The position numbers and the translations under genes were made by a program. A stretch of DNA of 28,992 nucleotides from a virus. Below, one piece after another: positions 1,933 through 11,948 of the stretch (its first letter is position 1; each line of letters begins with the position of its first letter). The stretch is taken from positions 1 to 28,992 of IMG/VR virus record IMGVR_UViG_3300005613_000319. One strand, given 5' to 3'. The notes under the pieces are model-generated. The model was given only the letters and a program-made list of their open reading frames with translations. It was not told where the DNA came from and did no database searches.

Positions 1933-2082
1933 ATGATGAAGAATGAATATAAATATGTTGTATGGGTAGGTGGTTGTGATGACTACTACACTACATACGA
2001 GAGAGCAAAGGAACATTATGATGAATGGATTGAGCAAGGATATGATGGCGTACATTTATTAAAAATAGGAGAAGAAAAATGA
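1933..2082 (+). CDS. small protein, unknown function
   Basis: A 49-residue ORF (MMKNEYKYVVWVGGCDDYYT at its start). It has a clear SD, AAGGAGAAAA, directly before ATG 1933, and its end overlaps the next ATG (2079). A second in-frame ATG at 1936 is possible. The pattern is a short beta strand, then a helix (YERAKEHYDEWIEQGYDG), then a strand, as in other members of the array. The 60 bases before it, 1874-1932, hold only a 9-codon frame and are probably noncoding. Confidence 0.65.
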   Translation: MMKNEYKYVVWVGGCDDYYTTYERAKEHYDEWIEQGYDGVHLLKIGEEK

Positions 2083-2294
2083 AATATATGGTTGAACTAC
2101 ATATAACCCAAATCCATGATGTGGAAATACAAGCCAATGGTTATGAAGATGCAAGGAACAAAGCCTTAGAACAATATAATAAAGGTTTGGTTCAAGTTAA
2201 CTCAATTGGAGTAGAGGAATCAGCGAAAGTTGTTAGCTTTATGTCCATGCCAACAATAGAAGAAATACTAGGAGAAGAAAATGCAAAAAGTTAG
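2079..2294 (+). CDS. small protein, possible DpnD/PcfM-like fold
   Basis: A 71-residue protein. Its N-terminus, MKYMVELHITQIHDVEIQAN, followed by GYEDARNKALEQY resembles the generic beta-beta-helix pattern of small DpnD/PcfM-like phage and plasmid proteins, in which a strand ending in V.A.. precedes an EEA..KA helix. This is a weak match made by eye. Its own SD, AGGAGAAGAAAA, lies in the tail of the preceding gene. The 3-prime end overlaps the next gene by 14 bases. Confidence 0.7.
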   Translation: MKYMVELHITQIHDVEIQANGYEDARNKALEQYNKGLVQVNSIGVEESAKVVSFMSMPTIEEILGEENAKS

Positions 2295-2409
2295 CGATAG
2301 AGAGATTGTCCAATACTATGGGCAGATATGGGCGAATGTGAAACATATGAAATCATTTATAAAAGAACTTAGAGAAAGATATGCAAAAGAAATGGGGGTG
2401 AGCAAATGA
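2281..2409 (+). CDS. duplicated 42-residue basic protein, copy 1
   Basis: A 42-residue protein containing EIVQYYGQIWANVKHMKSFI, mostly helical and net basic, unlike its acidic neighbours. A close paralogue lies at 6343-6468, with 32 of 39 aligned residues identical by hand. The SD is AGGAGAAGAAA in the preceding gene. The stop overlaps the next ATG (AAATGA), and the other copy shows the same arrangement. Function unknown; the basic helices could bind nucleic acid or an acidic partner (inference). Confidence 0.75.
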   Translation: MQKVSDREIVQYYGQIWANVKHMKSFIKELRERYAKEMGVSK

Positions 2410-2639
2410 GTACAGAAAAACAATTAATTAAAGCTACTAATTTTGTGGGTGTAACTTGCGAATTAGCAGATGAGATAATGCAAGATCGTCTAGGAAGATC
2501 ATACGAAGATTATCTTTTGGGCAATGACAATGACGGATATTCTTTTACAGAAGAAGGACAAGATATATTTAATGGAATATTAGATCATGTTGAATATATA
2601 TTTAGAACCAACGGACTTGTTCACGAGGATAGGGGGTAG
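2406..2639 (+). CDS. small acidic protein, unknown function
   Basis: A 77-residue protein (MSTEKQLIKATNFVGVTCEL at the start), helical and acidic. It is coupled to the preceding duplicated gene by an ATGA overlap. GGGGGTGAGC just upstream provides a strong ribosome site. The gene in the same place after the second copy, 6465-6659, is not similar in sequence, so only the upstream gene is duplicated. No known domain is seen. Confidence 0.7.
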   Translation: MSTEKQLIKATNFVGVTCELADEIMQDRLGRSYEDYLLGNDNDGYSFTEEGQDIFNGILDHVEYIFRTNGLVHEDRG

Positions 2640-2668
2640 TTAATTACCCAAAACAATGGAGAAGAAAA

Positions 2669-2845
2669 ATGGCTAGAGTAATAACTAATTTCGGCAACGA
2701 AAGATTCGAGGGAACTAGTGAAGAATTTAGAGAAGTGCTAAAAACTAAATTAGCTGCACCCGACCAAAAACTAAATTTCCAGATAGATAACCTATCTGAA
2801 AAAACCAAGGATAACTTAATCGAGTTATTTAAACCTAAATTTTAA
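2669..2845 (+). CDS. small protein, unknown function
   Basis: A 58-residue ORF starting MARVITNFGNERFEGTSEEF, with GGAGAAGAAAA as SD five bases before ATG 2669. The same GGAGAAGAAAA-ATG start box precedes the genes at 2079 and 2281. The C-terminal half is Lys-rich and probably helical. It has short intergenic gaps on both sides, unusual for this packed stretch. Confidence 0.62.
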   Translation: MARVITNFGNERFEGTSEEFREVLKTKLAAPDQKLNFQIDNLSEKTKDNLIELFKPKF

Positions 2846-2857
2846 AGGAGACTGCAA

Positions 2858-3064
2858 ATGAAAACATTTAAAGTAATTAGAAGTTGGACGGGATTTTCAG
2901 AAATAACTGTTCAAGCTGAAAACGAAGAACAAGCCAAGCTGTTAGTTGAAGAAGGTGAATACGATACCGATAACGAAGTCTTAACAGGCAACGGATTAGA
3001 TTATGGTTATAACAACGAAGAAACTATTGATATTCAAGCAATAGAGGAGAATGAAAATGTATAG
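2858..3064 (+). CDS. small acidic protein, DpnD/PcfM-like pattern
   Basis: A 68-residue protein. MKTFKVIRSWTGFSEITVQA then ENEEQAKLLVEEGEY fits the strand-strand-helix pattern of the small DpnD/PcfM-like family better than the other array members do; this is judged by eye. A clear SD, AAAGGAGACTGCAA, precedes ATG 2858. The C-terminus IQAIEENENV is encoded by DNA that also carries the SD of the next gene, and the same tail recurs in the gene at 3178-3399. Confidence 0.72.
   Translation: MKTFKVIRSWTGFSEITVQAENEEQAKLLVEEGEYDTDNEVLTGNGLDYGYNNEETIDIQAIEENENV
3032..3059 (+). repeat. gene-junction repeat, copy 1
   Basis: A 28-base junction beginning ATTCAAGCAATAGAGGAGAA and ending in an ATG start. 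It encodes the C-terminal IQAIEENEN of one gene and at the same time the SD and start codon of the next. Copy 2 at 3367-3394 matches in 27 of 28 bases. A shorter relative (TCAATAGAGGAGAACGAAG) precedes ATG 3540. Confidence 0.8.
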
Positions 3065-3185
3065 AGTAATTATAGAATTAGAATTTGATGATAAGCCGAC
3101 TGATGCAGATGTTTACAATTATCTGAATGAGTTAATGAATAACGATTGTTTGGGATATGAAATCAAGGAGAACGGAAATGAGTAA
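3057..3185 (+). CDS. small protein, unknown function
   Basis: A 42-residue ORF starting MYRVIIELEFDDKPTDADVY. The start overlaps the previous stop by 8 bases and is set by the GAGGAGAATGAAA box. The end, IKENGNE, again overlaps the next gene and carries that gene's AAGGAGAACGGAA ribosome site. Strand-then-helix pattern; no family recognised. Confidence 0.68.
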   Translation: MYRVIIELEFDDKPTDADVYNYLNELMNNDCLGYEIKENGNE

Positions 3186-3399
3186 TTTAGATGTTAGAAA
3201 TTGCGAAGTATGTAAAACAAACTTTGATTGGAATAATGAATTAGCTGGTTGTTTAGATATAGAAGAAATACTTGACTGTTCAGATACTCAAATAAATAAA
3301 TGGCAAGAACAAAATAAGAATATTGATTTACAAAGTTATTTTTGTTCTGAATGTGCAGATAAAACTATTCAAGCAATAGAGGAGAACGAAAATGAGTAA
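3178..3399 (+). CDS. small zinc-ribbon-like protein
   Basis: A 73-residue protein. Two cysteine pairs, CEVC near residue 8 and CSEC near residue 58, with two further cysteines between them, suggest a zinc ribbon or treble clef (inference from spacing). I chose ATG 3178 over the longer frame from 3157 because AAGGAGAACGGAA sits at the usual distance from 3178 and the 8-base overlap matches the other junctions. The C-terminus IQAIEENENE is the repeated junction tail. Confidence 0.72.
   Translation: MSNLDVRNCEVCKTNFDWNNELAGCLDIEEILDCSDTQINKWQEQNKNIDLQSYFCSECADKTIQAIEENENE
3367..3394 (+). repeat. gene-junction repeat, copy 2
   Basis: Second copy of the 28-base junction, differing from 3032-3059 by one T-to-C change in the spacer. 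It joins the zinc-ribbon-like gene to the gene starting at 3392. This marks a duplication or recombination point within the small-gene array. Confidence 0.8.
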
Positions 3400-3553
3400 G
3401 ACTTATATATTATCCCTAGAGGGTATTTGCGTTGGCGAAGATGAAATAGAAAATACTACAATACATATTTGTAGAAATGGCGAATGGTGTGAAATACATT
3501 TTGATATAGATGATATTGTTTCAATAGAGGAGAACGAAGATGAACCTAAGTGA
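3392..3553 (+). CDS. small protein, unknown function
   Basis: A 53-residue ORF starting MSKTYILSLEGICVGEDEIE and containing HICRNGEWCEIHF. The start is set by junction repeat 2 (GAGGAGAACGAAA-ATG). The tail IEENEDEPK encodes a third variant of the same junction. Cysteines at residues 13, 27 and 33 with His residues could bind metal, but no motif is certain. Confidence 0.65.
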   Translation: MSKTYILSLEGICVGEDEIENTTIHICRNGEWCEIHFDIDDIVSIEENEDEPK

Positions 3554-8137: not shown

Positions 8138-8208
8138 TTAACTATCCATGTGGCTGGTTCGATGTCGAGCAACTCCCTGGTGGTTCTGGCACTGAGTCAG
8201 AAGACTGA
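8134..8208 (+). CDS. possible 24-residue leader peptide ahead of xseB
   Basis: A 24-codon frame (MINYPCGWFDVEQLPGGSGT at its start) begins in an ATGA overlap with the previous gene and stops one base before the likely xseB ATG at 8210. xseB has no SD of its own, so translation through this frame followed by re-initiation could supply it. The peptide itself is not recognised. Confidence 0.35.
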   Translation: MINYPCGWFDVEQLPGGSGTESED

Positions 8209-8209
8209 T

Positions 8210-8485
8210 ATGAGTTTTGAGAAAGGACTCGCTGAACTTGAACGCATCGTTGCTAGGCTTGAGTCTAATGAAATAGATCTTGAGACAGCACTCGCAGACT
8301 TTGAGCAAGGCATGAAGATCCAACAATACTGCAAAAATAAATTAGACGAAGCTACTCTTCAAGTAAATCGTCTTCTTCAAGATGGGAAGCTGAAGCCTCT
8401 GAAAGATCTTCCTCATCATCAAGCAGCGCGTCCTCAACAATCTCTTGACCCAGATGATTCTCTAGACTTTTCTGATCTAGAATAA
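8210..8485 (+). CDS. xseB: exodeoxyribonuclease VII small subunit homologue
   Basis: A 91-residue protein. Residues 2-55 follow the XseB pattern closely: SFEKGLAELERIVARLESNE, then a helix DLETALADFEQGMKIQQYC and KKLDEA-like NKLDEATLQVNRLL. XseB normally binds several-fold to XseA to form ExoVII, which degrades single-stranded DNA in both directions. No XseA is in the window. Bacterial XseB is usually about 70-85 residues; here an extra Asp-rich tail (DPDDSLDFSDLE) lies over the 3-prime end of terS on the other strand. I place the start at ATG 8210 because the homology begins there; an upstream in-frame GTG 8150 and ATG 8162 also exist. Confidence 0.85.
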   Translation: MSFEKGLAELERIVARLESNEIDLETALADFEQGMKIQQYCKNKLDEATLQVNRLLQDGKLKPLKDLPHHQAARPQQSLDPDDSLDFSDLE

Positions 8486-8957
8486 CATCCTCTTCCTCTA
8501 CCTCTTCCACTTCCTCTGCATGGCCTAAGACAATCTGATGTTCTTGCACGAGTTCCTTGAGCCGATTCTCTAACTGGTCCCGGCTCATGCTATCGATCTT
8601 ATGTATCTTCAACTCCTTCTTATCAATCATGAGCCCAGCAAGTTTCGCTCTCGCAATCTCTGCTGTCACAGCCGGACCATATGAGCCATCCGCCAATGCC
8701 ACATCACGAATGTCTGCTAGCTTACTTGCGATGCCCTCAAAAGTAATCTCATTCTTCCTGCGCTGAATCGCTTTCAGAGATCTAATCCTTTCTTGCACAT
8801 GCTCATACTCTTTGTGATTCAACAACCTCGTTGCTGCCACCCCTGGATTTTCATACCCAGCCAAGTGAGCACACTTCGTCTGCTTATAATCCTGATACAC
8901 CATAAGATCCACGAAGGCCTCTTGTCGTTTCGTTAGTTTCTTTTTAGTTTCACTCAT
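8352..8957 (-). CDS. terS: terminase small subunit (TerS-like)
   Basis: A 201-residue protein. The N-terminal part LTKRQEAFVDLMVYQDYKQT (8-27) followed by HLAGYENPGVAATRLLNH matches the HTH region of Terminase_2-type small subunits, which bind the packaging site and load the large subunit. The central part is helical with KLAGLMIDKKELK, and the C-terminus is very acidic (EEVEEVEEEDVIL and LDDEED). The large subunit is not in this window, which is unusual. The last 134 bases overlap xseB on the opposite strand. A repeat-rich 340-base gap lies just upstream and could be its binding site. Confidence 0.8.
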   Translation of the reverse strand: MSETKKKLTKRQEAFVDLMVYQDYKQTKCAHLAGYENPGVAATRLLNHKEYEHVQERIRSLKAIQRRKNEITFEGIASKLADIRDVALADGSYGPAVTAEIARAKLAGLMIDKKELKIHKIDSMSRDQLENRLKELVQEHQIVLGHAEEVEEVEEEDVILDQKSLENHLGQEIVEDALLDDEEDLSEASASHLEEDDLLEE

Positions 8958-9299
8958 GCAAATATTCTACCTTAAATTATTGTTTAAAATTTGTTTATCC
9001 TTTGTAGCTCTAGAGAACCTATCTCTATCAAAGATTGGGTGCGTCTAGCTACCCATCTATAGTTCTCTATAGAGATGCACAACCGCACAACTGCACACCC
9101 TTGTAACCATGCGCCTTTCAGAGGTGCATGTGCGCATGTGCAGGCATGTGCAATTGCACAACCGCACAGACCCCTAAATCGCATAAGAATGCACCTTCCC
9201 AAGGGGTATGTGCAATTTGCCCTTTTCCCATTGCACAGGCGTTTACACACATCGATCATGCATTCATACATACATCTGAATATACATTCATCCCATGAT
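8958..9299. repeat. noncoding gap with GCACA/TGTGC array and palindromes
   Basis: Between terS and the methyltransferase there is no credible gene. GCACA occurs at 9077, 9085, 9093, 9156, 9164 and 9233, and its complement TGTGC at 9129, 9137, 9147 and 9209, often 8 bases apart; TGCACAACCGCACA occurs twice (9076-9089 and starting 9155 as TTGCACAACCGCACA). A 12-base palindrome TCTCTATAGAGA lies at 9064-9075, and the imperfect inverted arms TAGAGAACCTAT (9011-9022) and ATAGTTCTCTA (9059-9069) flank it. The position beside terS makes a packaging (pac/cos) or origin site plausible, but that is inference. Confidence 0.65.
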
Positions 9300-10631
9300 T
9301 TATTTAGTAACATTTGTTCTCTTCTCCTCTTCTAAGATAGCAAGACCAATGTTATAGATCACTTGAGGCACGATAGAATTACCCAGTGCCTTGAGTCGAT
9401 TGACGCGTTCAGGGATGCCTGTTGCTACTCTTGGGATGTTGGGCTCTCGCTCGAATCCGTAATGTCCGTCCAACCTGGCGGATACCCCATCAGCCATTCC
9501 ACCCACTCCGGGTTCAATGTGCCCTTGCCCGGTTTGTCCTTGACTGCCATCGTCAGTCCCACTTGCTTGCCCTTCGCTAGCCTTCGCTGTATTGCTGGGT
9601 CGCTCATGTTCCCCCTGTCCCTGTTGTCCGAGGCGTTCGGTGTCGGCCACATCTTCTGCTCGATTGCCACTCGCTCCTCCAAGTTCCCCTTGTAGCCCCT
9701 GTCGTTGTTGTCCATCGCCTTGACCACTGTGTCCATTGTCATCGACATCCCTATCGAGCTCCTTGGCGTGGGATACATCTCGCTCTTGACTGCGCCTGCC
9801 AGTTTGCTCTTCTTGGCTAGCTTCTCGTAGTCCGTGTTCTCCCCTGTGTCCTTGTAGTCCCTGGCCGCTGGAGTTGGGAACATCTTTTGTTGATACTTCA
9901 CTGCTGCATCGAGTGTCAGACCCCACTTGGTGTTGCTGTTCTTCGCTTCTCGATAAGGCTTGCCATTCTTGTCCTCCTTGATTGTCCCCGGAGATCCTCC
10001 CTTCCAGTCCCTCGCTTGTGGCGTGGGCCACATCACTTGCTCCCTTAGATTCGAGCATCCTCCCTTCTTCGCTTTGTCTGACAGCTCCTCCTTCTTTCTC
10101 ACTTGATTCACTCTCAGTCCGTCCATCGCTTGAGGTGTTGCCCACATTTTTTCCGAGGATCCAGATTCGATCTCTTCTGTGGGGAGCTTCGACACTGCAA
10201 GCTGGAATAATAAACGATTGCGTGGCGTAACCTTGGGTTTCCAAGTCAAGACACACATCATCGAGTGCCACATTGACGAAGCCACCAACGTTTTCGACAA
10301 TGACCCAAGTGGGTTTTTTGTATTTAATAATTTCATACATGTACGGCCAGAGGTGTCTATCATCTTCCTTGCCTTTTTTCTTGCCTGCGACACTGAACGG
10401 TTGGCATGGGATGCCTCCGCAGATGAGGTCGAAGTCTTGAATAATTCTTTCTGGTTCATTGCCTATCTCCTTTAGATCTTTATAGATTGGCACGTCTGGC
10501 CAATGTTTATTTAATACTTTACGACAGAAGTCATCAAACTCACAGAAAGCAACAGTGTCAAAACCACCTGTTGATTCTAATCCTAAGCTGAATCCTCCTA
10601 TCCCGGAACAGATATCTAGTATCCTAATCAT
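9300..10631 (-). CDS. DNA (cytosine-5) methyltransferase
   Basis: A 443-residue C5 methyltransferase that would move a methyl group from S-adenosylmethionine to cytosine in DNA, probably to shield phage DNA from restriction. Visible motifs are I, DICSGIGGFSLGL (6-18); IV, PCQP (75-78) with catalytic C76; VI, ENV (113-115); VIII, RRDRIWILG (152-160); and IX/X, RVNRLKALGNSIVPQ (from 409). The variable target-recognition part (about 162-400) is Gly/Gln/Glu/Ser-rich and low in complexity, with recurring VANT-like units (NVGNTS, DVAHAT, DVPNSS, DVSHAK, DVADTE). A second full reading frame runs through residues 58-402. GGAGGGAAATAA precedes ATG 10631. Confidence 0.92.
   Translation of the reverse strand: MIRILDICSGIGGFSLGLESTGGFDTVAFCEFDDFCRKVLNKHWPDVPIYKDLKEIGNEPERIIQDFDLICGGIPCQPFSVAGKKKGKEDDRHLWPYMYEIIKYKKPTWVIVENVGGFVNVALDDVCLDLETQGYATQSFIIPACSVEAPHRRDRIWILGKNVGNTSSDGRTESESSEKEGGAVRQSEEGRMLESKGASDVAHATSEGLEGRISGDNQGGQEWQALSRSEEQQHQVGSDTRCSSEVSTKDVPNSSGQGLQGHRGEHGLREASQEEQTGRRSQERDVSHAKELDRDVDDNGHSGQGDGQQRQGLQGELGGASGNRAEDVADTERLGQQGQGEHERPSNTAKASEGQASGTDDGSQGQTGQGHIEPGVGGMADGVSARLDGHYGFEREPNIPRVATGIPERVNRLKALGNSIVPQVIYNIGLAILEEEKRTNVTK
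9425..10459 (-). CDS. nested gene inside the methyltransferase, WPTP-repeat protein
   Basis: A 344-residue frame, shifted by one base and lying wholly within the methyltransferase gene. ATG 10459 has a textbook SD, AAAGGAGATAGGCA, seven bases from AGGAG to ATG, inside the host gene. It carries five units: KMWATPQAMDG, MWPTPQARDWKG, MFPTPAARDYKD, MYPTPRSS and MWPTPNASDNRDRG. The N-terminal part has WHSMMCVLTWKPKVTPRNRL with LLFQLAVSKLPTEE, and the C-terminus is LNPEWVEWLMGYPPGWTD. I remember such WPTP..RD and LNP.WVEWLMG.P.GWT segments in proteins annotated beside or within phage cytosine methyltransferases. The same DNA thus encodes recognisable repeats in both frames. Function is unknown; a partner or target-recognition subunit is possible. 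Confidence 0.72.
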   Translation of the reverse strand: MNQKELFKTSTSSAEASHANRSVSQARKKARKMIDTSGRTCMKLLNTKNPLGSLSKTLVASSMWHSMMCVLTWKPKVTPRNRLLFQLAVSKLPTEEIESGSSEKMWATPQAMDGLRVNQVRKKEELSDKAKKGGCSNLREQVMWPTPQARDWKGGSPGTIKEDKNGKPYREAKNSNTKWGLTLDAAVKYQQKMFPTPAARDYKDTGENTDYEKLAKKSKLAGAVKSEMYPTPRSSIGMSMTMDTVVKAMDNNDRGYKGNLEERVAIEQKMWPTPNASDNRDRGNMSDPAIQRRLAKGKQVGLTMAVKDKPGKGTLNPEWVEWLMGYPPGWTDITDSSESPTSQE

Positions 10632-10848: not shown

Positions 10849-11110
10849 CTGACTCATCATTAACATATAAAGCAATCATTGCGTAATGAATGATCTTTAA
10901 TAAATCAGATCGTTGCTTACCATTTTTCTTACCATAGCGCATGGCATACTTCATGATGTTGCCAATACAAAAACCTTCTCCATACCCGGAGTCAATGATC
11001 ATATCAGTTGCTTGATACTTACCATTGGCATAATGCTGATCATAAGTTTGATCAATATATTTTTTTAACTCATTAAGAGTTATGTCTTCTTTGAACTTAT
11101 AATTAATCAT
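10841..11110 (-). CDS. DUF3310-like protein
   Basis: An 89-residue soluble protein. The helix with ELKKYIDQTYDQHYANGKYQ, then GFCIGNIMKYAMRYGKKNG and DLLKIIHYAMIALY, matches the DUF3310/SaV-like pattern (GN..KY..R...K.G..DL.KA..Y) and looks very like cyanophage homologues I remember. The family is sometimes annotated as nucleotide kinase, a name with little support. It overlaps both neighbours by eight bases, in an operon with replication and DNA-modification genes, which suggests a nucleotide-related role. Confidence 0.78.
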   Translation of the reverse strand: MINYKFKEDITLNELKKYIDQTYDQHYANGKYQATDMIIDSGYGEGFCIGNIMKYAMRYGKKNGKQRSDLLKIIHYAMIALYVNDESDV

Positions 11111-11948
11111 GACAAAAACAAGTCATCTGTTCATCGAACATGTCTTGCTCCTCATAGTTAGGTTGCTTGCTTATATCTAGAAGCTTGATGTAGTTATCGC
11201 TGTCCTTCCTGAAGGTAGCGCCAGCATCTTTGCCAAACTTCTGTTCTTGTTTGATCCACCAGTCTGCCATCTCTGGTCTTTCCTTTAAGAGTTTGATCTT
11301 GGTATCCTTGCCTTTGAGAAAACATAAGTCACAGTTACCAGCCAATGTTTTGCCGCTGAAGTTTGTTAGATTCAAATCAAAGTTTTGTTTCTCCCAGAAA
11401 TCTGTCACATCTTTTACATCATGCTTGGCATGATACATAGGCAAGACATTTTCCCATGGGTTATTTTGATTCATAGCGCTTGACACTCTTCGAGGCTCAT
11501 CGTATCTAAGGCCTATCACGTTGTACCAAGTCTTGTGTCCTTTTAACTTACGCATAAACCTTGACATGACTTTGACCTTGAGTTCACTGGTGCAGAACCT
11601 GGCCACAGGATTAGGTAGGTATTGTCTTCTATCAATCAAAGCTTCAAAGGGTTCACCGTTTCTGCTTGCTGTTTCATAAGTAACTTCTTTGGTGCGATAG
11701 ACTGGACGCTCTTCACCAAAGTACAACTCTAACCAATGTATCTTTACGCCCCACTTTTGTTCTATCTCATGTACAAAGTCCAATGTCTCCGGGGCTTCCT
11801 TGCCTGTGTTGGCAAAGGTAACGTATACATCTTCAGGCAACGTGCCACCATGCGCTTGAATAATATTCCATAGCATGAACCCGGATGTTCTACCACCACT
11901 AAAGCTAATCAAAGCTGGTCCTTCTATCTTGTAAGGATTAGACTCCAT
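11103..11948 (-). CDS. PAPS-reductase-like PP-loop ATPase
   Basis: A 281-residue protein of the phosphoadenosine-phosphosulfate reductase/ATP-pyrophosphatase superfamily. The PP-loop SFSGGRTSG (15-23) binds ATP, and TFANTGKEAPETLDFVHEIE is the typical strand-helix that follows. RFCTSEL (118-123), GLRYDEPRR (146-154), GNCDLC (204-209) and a terminal CFC supply cysteines. Such genes are frequent in phages; known relatives take part in sulfate reduction (CysH), DNA phosphorothioation (DndC) and base modification. Lying in the same operon as a cytosine methyltransferase, it may act in nucleic-acid modification (inference). The start overlaps the previous gene by 11 bases. Confidence 0.85.
   Translation of the reverse strand: MESNPYKIEGPALISFSGGRTSGFMLWNIIQAHGGTLPEDVYVTFANTGKEAPETLDFVHEIEQKWGVKIHWLELYFGEERPVYRTKEVTYETASRNGEPFEALIDRRQYLPNPVARFCTSELKVKVMSRFMRKLKGHKTWYNVIGLRYDEPRRVSSAMNQNNPWENVLPMYHAKHDVKDVTDFWEKQNFDLNLTNFSGKTLAGNCDLCFLKGKDTKIKLLKERPEMADWWIKQEQKFGKDAGATFRKDSDNYIKLLDISKQPNYEEQDMFDEQMTCFCHD

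Follow-up and report, generated by a model that had tools for sequence, protein, structure and literature searches.

The stretch of viral DNA analysed here (28,992 nucleotides; hereafter the window) contains a C5-cytosine methyltransferase gene, within which a second long open reading frame runs on the same strand in the +1 frame. The question that this locus raises is whether the inner frame is a gene in its own right and, if so, how its product relates to the methyltransferase inside whose gene it is encoded.

Layout of the locus

The outer gene (9300–10631; this and all other features in this section are on the minus strand) encodes chain A, a protein of 443 residues comprising motifs I–VIII of the C5-cytosine methyltransferases, a linker, and motif X; it matches PF00145 over residues 2–229 (E = 2.7e-43) and phrog_363 over residues 1–438 (E = 1.8e-71). 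The inner gene begins 172 nt inside the outer one, in the +1 frame, and occupies exactly 9425–10459, in agreement with the initial annotation, which had described a nested 344-codon gene in another frame of a cytosine methyltransferase. Its product, chain B (344 residues), consists of an N-terminal domain (N-domain), five WPTP-type units, and a motif IX-like end; it matches phrog_1008, labelled ‘DNA methyltransferase’ (E = 2.5e-45), and a Pfam search assigned it to no family.

The internal start of the inner gene (10457–10473) comprises a Shine–Dalgarno (SD) sequence, AAAGGAG, at 10467–10473, which had also been recognised initially, followed by a spacer and the ATG (10457–10459). As an in-frame TAG (10463–10465) lies two codons upstream, the inner frame opens exactly at its ATG. 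Across related loci, the position of the inner start relative to motif IV is the same in 85 of 143, and an ATG is present in 133 of 143; the AAGGAG codon pair is found at the SD in 24 of 33 distinct loci (9.1 expected), and the closest upstream in-frame stop lies two codons before the inner start in 29 of 35 distinct loci.

In the outer frame, motif IV (GGIPCQPFS; 10392–10418) contains the catalytic cysteine, with P75, C76, Q77, P78, F79 and S80 invariant in diverse phages, and the motif VIII region (EAPHRRDRIW; 10158–10202), in which H151, R153 and R155 are invariant, is the final conserved catalytic motif before the linker. The inner N-domain (residues 1–105; 10145–10459) lies over motifs IV–VIII, where the substitution pattern indicates constraint on both frames. 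It is followed by unit 1, beginning WATPQAMDG (residues 106–143; 10031–10144), unit 2, beginning WPTPQARDWKGG (residues 144–193; 9881–10030), unit 3, beginning FPTPAARDYKD (residues 194–228; 9776–9880), unit 4, beginning YPTPRSSIGM (residues 229–270; 9650–9775), and unit 5, beginning WPTPNASDNRDRGN (residues 271–314; 9518–9649). The lead motifs are, in order, WATP, WPTP, FPTP, YPTP and WPTP, which bears out the five units first described, and they are followed by LNPEWVEWLMGYPPGWT. In the outer frame, the DNA of these units encodes a low-complexity ‘VANT/VADT’ linker (9462–10145), characterised by its substitution classes. The motif IX-like segment of chain B, LNPEWVEWLMGYPPGWTDI (9461–9517), was assigned from a pattern in relatives and its near-invariant columns; motif X (RVNRLKALGNSIVPQVIYNIGLAI; 9336–9407), assigned from conserved columns, is encoded by the outer frame past the stop codon of the inner gene.

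Selection on the two reading frames

Synonymous shuffles (1000) were made with the outer amino acids and codon usage fixed and also, in reverse, with the inner protein fixed. With the outer protein fixed, the inner frame contained a mean of 10.5 stops and was open in none of the 1000 shuffles, and the inner profile score was 47.6 ± 11.7 bits (maximum 90.6), compared with 225.8 bits for the real sequence. With the inner protein fixed, the outer frame was open in 0 of 1000 shuffles and the outer profile score fell from 305.8 to 150 ± 15. A weak control is provided by the ordinary C5-methyltransferases on L137, L261 and L262, whose +1 open stretches cover just 133–181 of 322–415 codons.

In this overlap, the third position of an outer codon is read as the second of an inner codon, and the first outer position as the third inner one. 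Divergence from the related locus L107 at outer positions 1, 2 and 3 was 0.14, 0.04 and 0.42 upstream of the inner gene, 0.07, 0.00 and 0.11 over motifs IV–VIII, 0.10, 0.04 and 0.02 over the repeats, and 0.12, 0.10 and 0.40 downstream of the inner gene; the pattern thus changes frame exactly at the nested region, with constraint on both frames where the catalytic motifs lie and control by the inner frame in the repeats. Overlap-aware rates agreed with this; for the motif IV–VIII overlap they were 0.071 for changes non-synonymous in the inner and synonymous in the outer frame, versus 1.03 for those synonymous in both (few sites). In the repeats, changes that are synonymous in the inner and non-synonymous in the outer frame occurred at 3.6 times the rate of the opposite class (0.124 versus 0.034 per opportunity per pair). 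The view of the initial annotation that both frames look selected stands for the motif IV–VIII overlap but not for the repeats, where selection acts mainly on the inner amino acids, and on the outer frame for openness only.

The inner ORF is a real gene. A chance ORF is ruled out by the synonymous shuffles together with the substitution pattern; selection on both frames, along with an initiation signal belonging to the inner frame, marks the two as a dual-coding gene pair.

Relatives and co-occurrence of the two frames

A tblastn search with the inner protein identified 90 phage records. In eight diverse phages (of Paenibacillus, Gordonia, Lacticaseibacillus, Bacteroides, a cyanophage, Erwinia, Klebsiella, and one unassigned) the inner frame was in each case (8/8) the +1 frame of a C5-methyltransferase. 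The +1 relation held for 156 of the 157 classified loci found via the inner protein; the outer frame was stop-free across the inner ORF in 144 of these 157, and the third frame contained 5–47 stops. As the sampled loci are related, such counts do not represent independent events.

A search with the catalytic half alone gave a sample of 80 loci that were not chosen by way of the inner frame. All 80 have the +1 inner partner: homologous methyltransferases with a broken inner frame had been proposed as a check on the inner gene, and none of this kind lacking the inner frame was found in the sample, so the gene survives that check. A single interruption of the inner frame does occur, in L029. The +1 arrangement is also present in most of 80 bacterial and plasmid loci, and no free-standing inner gene was found among the inner-selected viral, bacterial and plasmid loci, in which it always overlaps, or is fused with, a catalytic half.

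More complex arrangements were also observed. L083 (132–1952) has two overlapping methyltransferase/WPTP pairs in tandem, the second catalytic ORF being without its N-terminal part, and on L137 an ordinary single-chain C5-methyltransferase adjoins a split one of the nested family (14–1259 and 1969–3485).

Distribution of the methyltransferase motifs

Chain A has the features of a C5-methyltransferase (PF00145), with motifs I–VIII, including PCQ and ENV, and motif X (RLKALGNSIVPQ). It had been described initially as keeping all of the motifs of these enzymes; this proved incorrect for motif IX, which is absent from the outer frame, a IX-like segment being present at the C-terminus of chain B. 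Between motifs VIII and X, chain A contains neither a target-recognition domain (TRD) nor motif IX, and it is chain B that carries a TRD-homologous region and the IX-like segment; chain A alone is thus an incomplete C5-methyltransferase. The layout matches that of the M.EcoHK31I type, with motifs I–VIII and X on the large chain, motif IX on the small chain, and the small chain nested in an alternative frame. In the sample obtained with the catalytic half, the motif IX-like pattern was found on the inner chain in 68 of 80 loci and on the outer chain in none (0/80). Motif X was on the outer chain in 68/80 and, by pattern, on the inner chain in 4/80, three of which passed a stricter check; the IX pattern on the inner chain occurred together with X on the outer chain in 62/80.

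Approximately 20 mycobacteriophages (DLane gp65 and kin) inform on the identity of chain B, as in these one chain runs from motifs I–VIII through LPTP units and EWMMGWPxGW to motif X. The inner profile matches the region from the LPTP units to EWMMGWPxGW in these fused chains (E = 1.5e-14 to 2e-5), and an hhalign comparison of the inner profile with that region gave 96.4% (E = 1.3e-9). Ovechkin (L256) has the split, +1 version of the gene that is fused in DLane and kin. In DLane itself (L243; 2341–2736) the +1 frame of the fused gene remains open for 132 codons across the linker and encodes two LPTP units there; this is likely a relic of the nested arrangement.

In a structure model of the fused L263 chain, confidence is high for the catalytic part and the IX/X end, with the repeats at pLDDT < 50; the model aligns end to end with residues 12–324 of M.HhaI (Z 24.0, 212 residues, rmsd 2.6). 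For chain B by itself, AF2 gave a poor model (pLDDT 58.9, pTM 0.26), a search of the PDB with the inner profile returned nothing useful, and nothing in the fused chains corresponds to the N-domain. By pattern and position, and with weak profile support, the inner segment LNPEWVEWLMGYPPGWT may occupy the place of motif IX in canonical enzymes (compare RRLTPIECERLQGFPDNYT in the ordinary C5-methyltransferase on L137); a search of the PDB with a IX–X profile gave no significant match, the best methyltransferase having E = 0.47.

In nine loci (L003, L046, L126, L137, L237, L256, L351, L352 and L373) it is the inner ORF that ends with motif X. In all nine, the outer frame stops soon after motif VIII and has 2–22 stops within the inner span, with the fewest in GC-rich phages; in loci with motif X on the outer frame, that frame is kept open. 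Because the outer frame is closed where motif X is on the inner chain, and open where it is on the outer, we read the outer VANT/VADT stretch as a linker, the simplest reading being that it would be translated with reaching motif X as its main constraint. The capacity of chain B to take over the essential motif X argues that it is part of the same enzyme.

These comparisons make it most likely that chain B serves as the DNA-recognition subunit of a methyltransferase built from two subunits, to which it would contribute the TRD together with motif IX. The initial annotation had located the specificity region of the methyltransferase in the shared DNA; as a refinement, the recognition region is assigned to the inner frame, the outer VANT stretch being a weakly constrained linker. 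Its suggestion that the specificity region may be the coding space of a co-encoded partner finds support in the frame-specific selection, the co-occurrence of the two frames, the in-frame fusions, and the migration of motif X with decay of the outer frame.

Exchange of WPTP-type units

In total, 454 units were identified in 124 inner proteins, with 1–8 in each and a median length of 42 residues. Near-identical unit pairs are found at different positions in 465 of 881 cases, and 47 such pairs occur in proteins with N-domains that are < 65% identical. Unit 5 of the window has a near-identical unit in L018, with an N-domain identity of 44%; the window and L093 share their repeat-region DNA almost exactly, despite differences at 40% of the third positions in their 5′ parts. 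Mixing and matching of units is seen in the fused mycobacteriophage enzymes as well. These patterns indicate that the inner units are exchanged between phages, as specificity modules behave. We consider it possible, at rather less than even chance, that every WPTP-type unit recognises DNA as a module of its own and that the second-frame array is reshuffled by recombination to match the restriction of new hosts, with the linker of the catalytic chain having only to be stop-free. In L022 (2119–2350), an extra last WPTP unit with its motif IX-like end follows the inner ORF directly and in frame, as a cassette duplication might leave it.

Neighbouring features

Upstream of the methyltransferase are two small genes, followed by a gene encoding a PAPS-reductase domain (11103–11948, minus strand; PF01507, E = 6.8e-6). 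Of 148 related viral loci, 30 have a relative of the latter in the flanking sequence analysed, and a PAPS reductase is annotated near the methyltransferase in phages C72C1 and BKO1-TP3; a functional link between the two is possible. On the other side, a gene for the exonuclease VII small subunit, XseB (8150–8485, plus strand; PF02609, E = 1.3e-16), unusual in a phage contig, runs antisense into a terminase-small-like gene (8352–8957, minus strand; PF03592, below the curated cutoff). The non-coding region directly downstream of the methyltransferase (9067–9250) contains clustered ATGCACAACCGCACA / GTGCAATTGCAC repeats, both direct and inverted, which are possible binding sites or a possible origin.

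Proposed mechanism and alternative explanations

We think it very probable that a single stretch of DNA here specifies both chains of a C5-cytosine DNA methyltransferase, with the nested chain B carrying target recognition. Chain A would start normally and provide motifs I–VIII (SAM binding, the catalytic cysteine, and ENV), the long linker, and motif X. Chain B would initiate at its own SD and ATG inside the chain A gene, giving two initiations on one mRNA, and would bring the target-recognition region (1–8 WPTP-type cassettes of ~42 residues) and the motif IX-like segment. The chains are predicted to associate as an active split C5-methyltransferase in which chain B chooses the sites to be methylated, perhaps by cassette-specific recognition, and which may serve in self-protection against host restriction; the VANT/VADT stretch of chain A would have no recognition role, being open so that the ribosome reaches motif X.

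Alternatively, ribosomes could undergo programmed +1 frameshifting once past motif VIII, which would join the catalytic half to the WPTP region and yield a fused enzyme beside chain A, leaving the inner ATG unused. Single-chain fusions do exist in mycobacteriophages, and in the loci with motif X on the inner chain such a shift would give back a complete enzyme (a 379-residue product for L126). However, the outer stop of those loci lies at varying distances from motif VIII, and in loci with motif X on the outer chain a shift would lose it. Furthermore, ~100 codons of open, constrained inner frame precede any point at which a shift would be useful, and this frame begins exactly at a conserved, SD-preceded ATG with a stop immediately before it; these features make a frameshift product unlikely.

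It is similarly improbable that the inner protein, though genuinely encoded, has a function of its own (e.g. anti-restriction or regulation) and nothing more than DNA in common with the methyltransferase: an N-domain without a match in the fused enzymes and a protein without a Pfam family would suit such a gene, but the C-terminal two thirds of the inner protein are homologous to the TRD region of fused C5-methyltransferases, the sampled loci never contain it without an overlapping or fused catalytic half, and it takes over motif X in the nine loci described above. As for an untranslated by-product of outer-frame composition and conserved motifs, the conservation of the inner N-domain is in part dictated by outer motif VIII (PAC.VGAPHRRD); yet the failure of every shuffle to leave the inner frame open, the inner-dominated substitution pattern, and an inner frame that is open in loci with a decayed outer frame render this explanation extremely improbable.

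Relation to known systems

The two-chain reading would place the locus within a known kind of enzyme, as M.EcoHK31I is a precedent for nested two-polypeptide C5-methyltransferases. Work by Lee et al. in 1995 is said to have found that the small chain of M.EcoHK31I is read from an alternative frame within the gene for the large one. M.AquI and M.EcoHK31I are natural two-polypeptide C5-methyltransferases; in M.EcoHK31I, motifs I–VIII and X, and by assignment the TRD, are on the large chain and motif IX is on the small chain, and in M.AquI motifs I–VIII are on one chain with part of the variable region and motifs IX–X on the other (PMC3404938). Compared by description, M.EcoHK31I (YGGCCR; also M.EaeI) resembles the present locus in having two chains, with IX on the small and I–VIII plus X on the large, but differs in that its TRD is in the large chain, whereas in the present locus it is the small chain that carries the TRD-homologous region. 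This suggests that it may be worth re-examining which chain of M.EcoHK31I holds the TRD. We know of no report of variable tandem cassettes, phage-wide spread or a motif X swap for M.EcoHK31I. M.AquI (CYCGRG), with motifs I–VIII on one chain, resembles the loci with motif X on the inner chain; its variable region is divided between its chains, whereas here one full chain is nested in the frame of the other.

Among phages, the actinophage methylase pairs Upyo gp54/gp53 and DrYang gp77/gp78, and the fused DLane gp65, belong to the same family and have the same unit type, but have motif X on chain B or are single chains, with an outer frame that is not kept open. Both chains are present as ‘DNA methyltransferase’ families (PHROG 363 and PHROG 1008), and nesting is annotated for Paenibacillus phage Diva gp49/gp50 (‘g49 internal gene’), but in these records the chains are not read as subunits of one enzyme. 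The multispecific phage C5-methyltransferases SPR, phi3T and rho11 are single chains with tandem recognition modules of ~40 residues; the WPTP units, as candidate recognition modules, resemble these in their tandem arrangement and size, but are here on a second chain. In the open-access literature we found no description of a nested phage methyltransferase family, of the recognition region as a nested chain, of its cassettes, or of the frame-switching forms, and the passages found in the GeneTack frame-transition paper make no mention of a nested methyltransferase case. The phage-wide spread, the cassette TRD and the frame-switching forms therefore appear to have been undescribed so far.

In most database entries, one of the two frames is named methyltransferase and the other is dropped or mislabelled; the enzyme class is consequently read as complete, with its recognition half in a hidden frame. 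If the two-chain reading is correct, the annotated gene, when cloned alone with recoded codons, is predicted to give a dead enzyme. Among dual-coding pairs of phages, the two chains would then be one of the longer and more widely distributed, and their nested, split and fused forms would constitute natural experiments on how overlapping genes form and dissolve.
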